Source of the DNA: Streptomyces griseorubiginosus
Lineage (GTDB): Bacteria; Actinomycetota; Actinomycetes; Streptomycetales; Streptomycetaceae
Length of the DNA stretch: 64,000 nt
Reading direction: 5' to 3'
Assembly: GCF_001514195.1 (NCBI RefSeq)
Contig: NZ_KQ948746.1
Location: 1-64,000 of the forward strand
Of this stretch, positions 29,356 through 32,055 are shown one piece after another. The notes below the pieces were generated by a model, which worked only from the letters and a program-made list of their open reading frames with translations, searched no databases and was not told the DNA's origin. The translations under genes and the position numbers were made by a program. Each line of letters opens with the position of its first letter. Position 1 is the first letter of the stretch.

Positions 29356-30183
29356 TCAGGCCGCGACCGGCGGCTGCGGCTTGGCTCTGTCCTTGTCCGG
29401 GCCGCCCGTGAAGTCCTCGTAGGCCGCCAGGACTTCCTCGGTGGGGCCGTCCATGCGCAGTTCGCCGCGCTCCAGCCACAGGACGCGGTCGCAGGTGTCG
29501 CGGATGGACTTGTTGCTGTGGCTGACCAGGAACACCGTGCCCGCGTGCTTGCGCAGTTCGCGGATTCGGTCCTCGGAACGCTTCTGGAAGGAGCGGTCGC
29601 CGGTCGCGAGCGCCTCGTCGATCAGCAGCACGTCGTGGTCCTTGGCGGCGGCGATGGAGAAGCGCAGGCGGGCCGCCATGCCGGAGGAGTAGGTGCGCAT
29701 CGGGAGGGTGATGAAGTCGCCCTTCTCGTTGATGCCGGAGAAGTCGACGATCTCCTGGTAGCGGTCCCTGACCTGCTCGCGGGACATGCCCATGGCGAGG
29801 CCGCCGAGGTAGACGTTGCGCTCGCCGGTGAGGTCGTTCATCAGGGCCGCGTTGACGCCGAGGAGAGAGGGCTGGCCGTCGGTGTAGATGCGGCCGTTCT
29901 CCACCGGGAGCAGGCCCGCGACCGCTTTGAGCAGGGTCGACTTGCCGGAGCCGTTGGTGCCGATCAGGCCGATGGCCTCGCCCTTGTACGCGACGAAGGA
30001 GACGTTCTTGACGGCGTGCACCTTGCGGACGCCCGCCGCCTTCTCGGCCTGGCCCTTGCGCAGCATGCGGTTGAGGGCGGCGGTGGCGGAGCCCTTGCCG
30101 GCGCCGGTGCCGTTGACGCGGTAGACGATGTCGACGCCGTCCACGACGACGGTGGGGATCAGCTCGTTCTCGATGTCAGCCAC
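29356..30183 (-). CDS. ABC transporter ATP-binding protein, TagH-like (polysaccharide/teichoic acid export)
   Basis: 275 residues. Walker A is GTNGSGKST (about 75-83), the signature is YSSGMAARL (about 166-174), Walker B is VLLIDEALATGD (about 185-196). A 45-residue N-terminal segment before the ATPase (KGSATAALNRMLRKGQ) is typical of exporters of wall glycopolymers. With the permease upstream it forms a Wzm/Wzt-type pair that moves undecaprenyl-linked glycopolymers out across the membrane. It overlaps the permease gene by 8 bases. The polymer is inferred from the neighbouring GalE and TagF-like genes. Confidence 0.9.
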   Translation of the reverse strand: MADIENELIPTVVVDGVDIVYRVNGTGAGKGSATAALNRMLRKGQAEKAAGVRKVHAVKNVSFVAYKGEAIGLIGTNGSGKSTLLKAVAGLLPVENGRIYTDGQPSLLGVNAALMNDLTGERNVYLGGLAMGMSREQVRDRYQEIVDFSGINEKGDFITLPMRTYSSGMAARLRFSIAAAKDHDVLLIDEALATGDRSFQKRSEDRIRELRKHAGTVFLVSHSNKSIRDTCDRVLWLERGELRMDGPTEEVLAAYEDFTGGPDKDRAKPQPPVAA

Positions 30184-31108
30184 GGCCGTAGGTCTCCTCA
30201 GCCTTCCAGAAGTAGATGAAGCCGCCGATGCCGGCGAGCAGCGCCCAGCCCGTCGCGATCGGCCACACGTGATGCGGCAGCTGGCTGGAGTGGAAGCTGT
30301 CGATCAGGGCGTAGCGCATCAGGTCGATGTAGACGGCGGCCGGGTTGGCCTGGAGGACCGGGACCACCCAGTGCGGCCAGTCGTGGTGGCCCTTGGCCAG
30401 CTTGTCGATGCTCCACATCACGCCGGAGACGTACATCCACGTGCGCAGGATGAACGGCATCAGCTGGGCGATGTCGGGCGTCTTGGCGCCCATCCGCGCC
30501 ATGACCATGGAGACGCCGGCGTTGAAGGTGAACTGGAGGACCAGCGCCGGGATCGCCAGCAGCCAGGACGCGCTGACCGGCACGCCGAAGCAGAGCAGGA
30601 TGACGACCAGTGCGCCCATCGAGAACAGCAGCTGCTGGAGCTGCTGGAGGCAGAACGAGATCGGGAGCGCGGCCCGCGGGAAGTGCAGCGCCCGCACCAG
30701 GCCCAGGTTGCCCGAGATGGCGCGGGTGCCCGCCAGGATCGAGCTCTGGGTGAACGTCCAGATGAACACGCCCGTCACCAGGAACGGGATGTAGTCCGGC
30801 ACGCCCTTCTTGGTGCCCAGCAGAACACCGAAGATGAAGAAGTAGACCGCCGCGTTCAGCAGGGGGTTCATCACCTGCCAGACCTGGCCCAGCTTCGCCT
30901 GGCTGTACTGCGCGGTGAGCTTGGCGGTGGCGAACGCGGTGATGAAGTGCCGCCGCGCCCACAGCTCTCGGACGTACACGGGCAGGGAGGGACGGGCACC
31001 GCTGACCGCGAGGCCGTGCCGGGCGGCAAGGGCCGCGAGGTCGCCGTCGGCCGGGGCCGCTGTGGGGGGCGGTGTGTCGAGGACCTGGCTCACATCCGCT
31101 GCTTTCAC
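30176..31108 (-). CDS. ABC-2 type polysaccharide export permease, TagG-like
   Basis: 310 residues with a 55-residue cytosolic start and six transmembrane helices. The motif YSQAKLGQVWQVMNPLLNAAVYFFIF (split across about 70-95) is diagnostic of TagG/Wzm permeases. It ends GFIYFWKAEETYGRG. The start is a GTG at 31108; an in-frame GTG at 31093 is equally possible because neither has a good ribosome binding site. It is divergent from a TetR gene, and the gap holds a striking operator-like array. Confidence 0.9.
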   Translation of the reverse strand: MKAADVSQVLDTPPPTAAPADGDLAALAARHGLAVSGARPSLPVYVRELWARRHFITAFATAKLTAQYSQAKLGQVWQVMNPLLNAAVYFFIFGVLLGTKKGVPDYIPFLVTGVFIWTFTQSSILAGTRAISGNLGLVRALHFPRAALPISFCLQQLQQLLFSMGALVVILLCFGVPVSASWLLAIPALVLQFTFNAGVSMVMARMGAKTPDIAQLMPFILRTWMYVSGVMWSIDKLAKGHHDWPHWVVPVLQANPAAVYIDLMRYALIDSFHSSQLPHHVWPIATGWALLAGIGGFIYFWKAEETYGRG

Positions 31109-31174
31109 TCGGGGGGTGGGGTGGTGCGTCGGTGCGTGGTTCTTGTGCGGCGGGTGGGTCCGGCCGATGTTTTC

Positions 31175-31202
31175 TTACGTGACTCTTTACGTTCTCTTAC
31201 GT
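31175..31202. repeat. Three TTACGT hexamers upstream of the TagG-like gene
   Basis: TTACGT occurs at 31175-31180, 31187-31192 and 31197-31202, each preceded by CT. Read on the minus strand it is a triple ACGTAA, 66-95 bases before the permease start. It may be promoter or regulator-binding sequence for the export operon. Confidence 0.4.
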
Positions 31203-31206
31203 CGGG

Positions 31207-31405
31207 ACGGGACCGTATCGTCGCAACGTGAGCGTAGGACGAGTGAGCGTCGGAACGCAACCGTTTCGTCGTCACCTCGCGCGTGGGGACGCAACCGTTT
31301 CGTCGTGACCTCGCCCGTTGGGACGCAACCGTTTCGTTGTGACCTCGCCCGTTGGGACGCAACCGTTTCGTTGTGACGTCCCGCGTCGGAACGAGACCGT
31401 TTCGT
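31207..31405. promoter_or_regulatory. Array of six operator-like 15-bp palindromes, five at exact 34-bp spacing
   Basis: ACGCAACCGTTTCGT occurs at 31255-31269, 31289-31303, 31323-31337 and 31357-31371. ACGAGACCGTTTCGT follows at 31391-31405. A degenerate copy, ACGGGACCGTATCGT, lies at 31207-31221. The consensus ACGnAAC-n-GTTnCGT is a dyad with a central base, as expected for a TetR-type operator. The 34-base repeat unit also keeps a GTGACCTCGCCCGT block between sites. The array fills the divergent region between the TetR gene at 31429 and the TagG-like permease, so the TetR protein is the obvious candidate ligand. Confidence 0.8.
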
Positions 31406-31415
31406 CGCTACGCCC

Positions 31416-31421
31416 TATGCT
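31416..31421 (+). promoter_or_regulatory. Putative -10 box of a leaderless TetR transcript
   Basis: TATGCT matches a -10 consensus and ends seven bases before the ATG at 31429. No ribosome binding site precedes the ATG, so transcription may begin at the start codon. The last operator-like palindrome ends ten bases upstream of this box. Confidence 0.45.
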
Positions 31422-31428
31422 GGTCCGC

Positions 31429-32055
31429 ATGACGACCAACGCCGACGCGCCGCAGACCCGTCCGCGCCGCCGTGCTCCGGCCGGAGCCGCCGTTCTCCGC
31501 GAGGATGTGACGGAAGCCATTCGGGCGGCCGTCTTCGAGGAGCTCGCGGCCGTCGGGTACGCGCGGATGTCGATCGAGGGCATCGCGCGCCGCGCGGGCG
31601 TCGGCAAGACCGCGGTCTACCGCCGCTGGCGTTCCAAGCTGCACCTGGTCCTCGACGTCGTCTCGGAGATCGCGGTGATGGGCCTGCCGGTGCCGGACAC
31701 GGGCTCGCTCCAGGACGACCTGCGGATGCTGTACGAGGTCACGTCGAGGGCGCTGCGGCATCCCGTGGCCTCGCAGATCCTCCCGGACCTCCAGGCCGAG
31801 GCGGCCCGTAACCCCGAGATCGCCGAAGCCCTCCAGAACGCCTTGCAGAAGGGTCAGGAGGGCGTCGCCAGCAAGATCATCGTGGCGGCGGAGCAGCGCG
31901 GCGAGATCCGGCCTGGCCTCAACGACGAACTGGCCCTCGACCTGATCTCGGGCCCCCTGTACTGGCGATCCGTGGTGATCCGCAGCCCGAAGCTGCCGAA
32001 GGGCTACCTCGCGGCGCTGGCACACGCGACCACGGAGGCGCTGAAGGCGCTCTGA
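31429..32055 (+). CDS. TetR/AcrR family transcriptional regulator
   Basis: 208 residues. An Arg/Pro-rich tail (about 1-22) precedes the TetR helix-turn-helix at about 27-73 (AAVFEELAAVGYARMSIEGI, ARRAGVGKTAVYRRW). The C-terminal domain resembles the TetR_C group seen with RutR-like or efflux regulators (LRHPVASQILPDLQAEAARN). It is divergent from the TagGH-like exporter and has five or six palindromes upstream, so autorepression and control of the exporter are likely. The ligand is unknown. Confidence 0.93.
   Translation: MTTNADAPQTRPRRRAPAGAAVLREDVTEAIRAAVFEELAAVGYARMSIEGIARRAGVGKTAVYRRWRSKLHLVLDVVSEIAVMGLPVPDTGSLQDDLRMLYEVTSRALRHPVASQILPDLQAEAARNPEIAEALQNALQKGQEGVASKIIVAAEQRGEIRPGLNDELALDLISGPLYWRSVVIRSPKLPKGYLAALAHATTEALKAL

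Follow-up and report, generated by a model that had tools for sequence, protein, structure and literature searches.

A Probable TagR Operator Array Expanded in 34-bp Units in the tagG–tagR Gap of a Streptomyces Genome

The TagR–tagGH system of S. roseosporus is the closest described system to the locus studied here. According to PMC10269677, TagR is a TetR protein that binds the tagR–tagG gap, giving several EMSA bands and at least two footprints. Knockout of tagR raised expression of tagG and tagH, and the autoregulation of TagR was positive. The tagR–tagG pair was present in most Streptomyces searched, with gaps of 100–300 bp. The regulator TagR and its target tagGH are already published; hence the system itself is not new.

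The window is the whole stretch of DNA analysed in this study, 64,000 nucleotides of Streptomyces griseorubiginosus. The genes around the gap were as follows:
29356..30183, minus strand: wzt/tagH-like ABC ATPase, partner of the permease (PF00005)
30176..31108, minus strand: wzm/tagG-like ABC-2 permease, divergent from tagR (PF01061)
31429..32055, plus strand: tagR, TetR-family regulator of 208 aa (TetR_N and TetR_C_11 above gathering scores)

Among NCBIfam models, the permease matched galactan_ABC_perm below its cut-off, and the best models of the ATPase were TagH and galactan-export ATPases, both below their cut-offs. The arrangement was like that of S. roseosporus (PMC10269677): a TetR gene divergent from a wall-teichoic-acid exporter, at least two sites in the gap, and a downstream gene on the opposite strand; tagG of S. 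roseosporus occupies the place of the permease. This locus combined a TetR-family protein of TagR size (about 206–208 aa), divergent exporter genes of the tagG–tagH type and a shared gap with two or more operator-like sites. Matches to tagR at E ≤ 1e-40 were present in 207 of 247 genomes of the genus. Judged by its family, its size, the gene order and how widespread it is, the adjacent TetR protein is probably the ortholog of S. roseosporus TagR, and its main target is likely the tagG-like permease gene.

The exact 15-mer ACGCAACCGTTTCGT occurred four times in the gap, at 31255, 31289, 31323, and 31357, and the variant ACGAGACCGTTTCGT occurred at 31391, so the steps from 31255 onward were 34, 34, 34, and 34 bp. 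A further site, ACGGGACCGTATCGT, was located at 31207, 48 bp ahead of the first ACGCAACCGTTTCGT. These copies and spacings agreed with the earlier note on this DNA. With up to two mismatches, the window contained 8 matches against 1.57 ± 1.33 expected, and 0 of 100 shuffles reached 8. Tandem Repeats Finder reported a period of 34 for the array, with 4.7 copies and a score of 224.

The operator consensus was derived from 108 loci aligned on both ancestral sites. At both sites, strong conservation spanned positions −14 to +14 relative to the centre and dropped outside this range, giving CGTCGGRACGNRACCGTWTCGTCGYNACG; to the left of the distal site, the drop was more gradual than elsewhere. The dyad is symmetrical, with CGTnnnnACGnAAC in each arm. 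The earlier note had described 15-bp dyads sharing a GTGACC block. The palindromes are real, but the conserved unit is a 29-bp dyad, and the GTGACC block, although present, is the right outer arm of that dyad. The repeat unit consists of a 29-bp operator and a 5-bp linker, and the gap contained six operators (no strand; mismatches counted against the genus operator):
31200..31228: distal operator CGTCGGGACGGGACCGTATCGTCGCAACG, ancestral, 0 mismatches, conserved in the aligned loci
31248..31276: first proximal operator, ancestral, 1 mismatch
31282..31310: interior extra operator 1, 2 mismatches
31316..31344: interior extra operator 2, 3 mismatches
31350..31378: interior extra operator 3, 2 mismatches
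31384..31412: last, tagR-proximal operator, 0 mismatches, its place fixed relative to the tagR −10 box

The site at 31207, previously taken as a degenerate sixth copy, is the distal operator, which is strictly conserved across the genus and not decayed.

When up to three mismatches were allowed, the 29-bp pattern gave 6 matches in the 9.87-Mb genome, all in the tagG–tagR gap, and 0 in the reversed control. The operator was present in 24 of 24 held-out TagR-bearing genomes and in 0 of 22 genomes without a close TagR, all 22 of which had a TagG homologue. The proposed tie between the repeats and the adjacent TetR gene was borne out by this comparison across genomes. The TagR of the window would be expected to bind the six operators. 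Three similar 15-bp cores lay at or near other TetR-like genes of the same genome, as might be seen if the sites were bound by a TetR-family protein other than TagR or by some other factor. Binding by such a factor instead of TagR is very improbable, because the 29-bp form was found nowhere else in the genome and followed the presence of TagR exactly in the sampled genomes, and because S. roseosporus TagR binds the corresponding gap (PMC10269677). The similar cores elsewhere were rejected as further TagR targets, the 29-bp form being absent there. Another TetR-like gene of the genome that contains the window (C12) had the 15-bp palindromes ACGACACTGTTTCGT and ACGAAACGGTTTCGT 46 bp apart (L111:1474-1534); the pair resembles the ancestral TagR pair but lacks the 29-bp form.

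Exactly two operators were found at 113 of 173 distinct orthologous loci and three to eight at 58 of them; the named loci come from the nearest relatives, so these proportions are not genus-wide frequencies. Two sites per TagR locus were in line with the expectation that TetR regulators usually use one or two operators. The spacing of the first pair was 48 bp in 143 of 171 loci and nearly always 46–50 bp. The ancestral control region evidently comprised two operators 48 bp apart, one distal and one proximal. The proximal operator could usually be recognised in the family's other genera as well, and a weaker distal operator frequently lay 46–57 bp from it. Three loci from other genera (L239, L244, and L245) were without the standard proximal site and instead carried a CGACGAAACGCAAGCGTTGCGTCG-type palindrome that was almost perfect, accompanied by a weaker copy at a distance of 19 bp.

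The following promoter boxes were predicted:
31231..31236, minus strand: tagG −10 box TACGCT (position occupied by TANNNT in 165 of 169 loci)
31255..31260, minus strand: tagG −35 box TTGCGT, within the first proximal operator (identical in 168 of 169 loci)
31416..31421, plus strand: tagR −10 box TATGCT (the last operator is followed by TATGCT in 158 of 171 loci)

The predicted tagG −35 and −10 boxes were 18 bp apart, and the distal operator overlay the predicted tagG transcription start. The tagR −10 box was 6–8 nt ahead of the first ATG in 168 of 171 loci. It was only 7 nt ahead in the window, so the tagR transcript is likely leaderless. A generic scan of the gap for sigma-70 promoters and terminators found nothing, and the boxes of both promoters thus rest on conservation. 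The predicted tagG leader contained an ACGT-rich repeated box at 31173-31203, on the tagG side of the distal operator, with TTACGT at 31175, 31187, and 31197; many relatives had a similar box.

At expanded loci, the spacing of the distal pair was kept, and in nearly all cases the extra operators lay on the tagR side of this pair, ahead of the tagR promoter. Among non-first spacings, 34 bp clearly predominated, with 48 cases against six of 33 bp and two of 35 bp; none in the compared loci was below 33 bp. Other spacings at expanded loci were 36, 40, 45, 60–90, and more than 150 bp. In the initial part of the array, an indel exactly one 34-bp unit long distinguished the sister loci L013 and L144, and the gaps in the alignment of the window array to relatives were whole 34-bp units. 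Three successive linkers in the window were still nearly alike (TCGCG, TCGCC, and TCGCC), so the perfect regularity of this array mainly marks recent duplication. On the tagR tree, changes between two and more sites numbered 17, at least 7 of which were forced by well-supported branches, and 33–35-bp spacing needed 11 changes, at least 5 of them forced; these step counts do not tell gain from loss. The comparisons indicated that the extra operators arose by tandem duplication of 34 bp (29 + 5), both in the clade of the window and elsewhere in the genus. The unit indel between sister loci and the predominance of 34-bp spacing upheld the tandem duplication suggested earlier. The array is a lineage-specific expansion, in which copying of one ancestral operator in this strain produced six sites.

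Two loci showed other arrangements. The TagR locus L094 had five sites spaced 47, 47, 47, and 52 bp, apparently an expansion of the distal and not the proximal operator. The spacing of 48, 45, 48, and 45 bp at L154 suggests a duplicated two-operator block of 93 bp.

Between copies 34 bp apart, 82% of operator positions and 32% of linker positions were identical, so operators were kept while linkers drifted to near chance, although the search itself favours recognisable sites. Regular tandem repeats of varying copy number could also be a minisatellite without a regulatory role. This is the least probable explanation and can hardly be sustained, given the retention of the operators beside near-random linkers and the genus-wide conservation of the ancestral pair. 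The mean operator score was 28.9 for interior copies, compared with 46.5 for distal, 47.7 for first proximal and 43.0 for last operators. The interior copies were thus less constrained than these anchors, and some may do nothing.

It is quite possible, if somewhat short of an even chance, that the sites are TagR operators but that just three of them (distal, first proximal and last) matter, the interior copies being near-neutral by-products of duplication that come and go. The lower interior score is consistent with this, as are the decayed copies and short insertions and the variation in number and spacing even among loci with 95–96% identical TagR. The greater identity of operators than of linkers argues against it, with the detection bias given above, and so do the recurrence of expansion on the tree, the lack of spacings below 33 bp and the appearance of near-34-bp spacing in separate lineages.

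The array could instead be a cooperative platform, in which TagR complexes at 34-bp steps touch each other or wrap the DNA to give switch-like control. At a 34-bp step, 29-bp operators are closely packed, 5 bp apart, the exact 34 bp outlasts linker divergence, and related dimer-of-dimers regulators cooperate within one operator (PMC4150764). Exact spacing is also expected from duplication without later indels, however, and the other expanded loci included spacings from 36 to over 150 bp. Moreover, 34 bp corresponds to 3.24 helical turns, so neighbouring operators face different sides of the DNA. A cooperative platform is accordingly unlikely. The cooperative or phased assembly put forward in the earlier note gained no direct support: sister species differ in how many extra sites they have and how these are spaced, and the conservation of the extra sites is lower than that of the anchors.

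The six palindromes are very probably operators of the TagR ortholog, 29-bp dyads derived from an ancestral pair by 34-bp duplications, with the anchors doing most of the work; this reading was reached by sequence comparison. TagR would repress the divergent wall-teichoic-acid exporter genes tagGH, with the distal operator over the tagG start. In the ancestral layout, the −35 box of tagG and the −35 region of tagR would both lie under the proximal operator, and TagR would therefore control the two promoters simultaneously. Duplication in 34-bp units would place the extra operators between the ancestral pair and the tagR promoter and move the predicted tagG and tagR starts from about 69 to about 205 bp apart, leaving each promoter with its own operator. 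The three anchor operators would carry most of the regulation. The extra copies would raise the capacity for TagR binding, probably with a modest effect; they may make repression sharper, draw TagR away by titration, decouple the two promoters or be near-neutral. The published autoregulation is positive (PMC10269677), whereas an operator at the tagR promoter predicts simple autorepression. Separation of the promoters could remove polymerase interference and could bear on this positive autoregulation. More tentatively, and with considerable doubt, wall-teichoic-acid export may have been repeatedly re-tuned in Streptomyces by 34-bp operator growth that splits overlapping divergent promoters, changing a coupled switch into an independently graded or sharper one.

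The window has six operators, compared with two in the S. roseosporus system, and an operator array is not described in the available part of PMC10269677. Array expansion could explain the gap lengths of 100–300 bp published there. The new elements are the precise 29-bp operator and the fixed 48-bp pair defined across the genus, the ancestral arrangement of two sites enclosing an invariant promoter, and the natural series of two to eight operators in related species. This series lets the effect of extra repressor sites be asked in existing strains. Variation of the operators may explain differing TagR-governed osmotic and envelope behaviour among industrial Streptomyces, and the locus shows a bacterial control region growing by tandem duplication.

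In homotypic operator clusters, the same operator recurs several times within a bacterial control region. The window differs in its exact 34-bp tandem units, whose copy number varies among species. A literature search for TetR regulators with operator arrays found no close case. TetR operators bound by a single dimer are 15–17 bp, whereas those of the dimer-of-dimers class (QacR, CgmR, Ms6564, and CprB) are 22–32 bp (PMC4150764). The 29-bp operator of the window falls within the latter range, and its length suggests two dimers per operator. The operators compared in PMC4150764 are single, whereas those of the window form an array.
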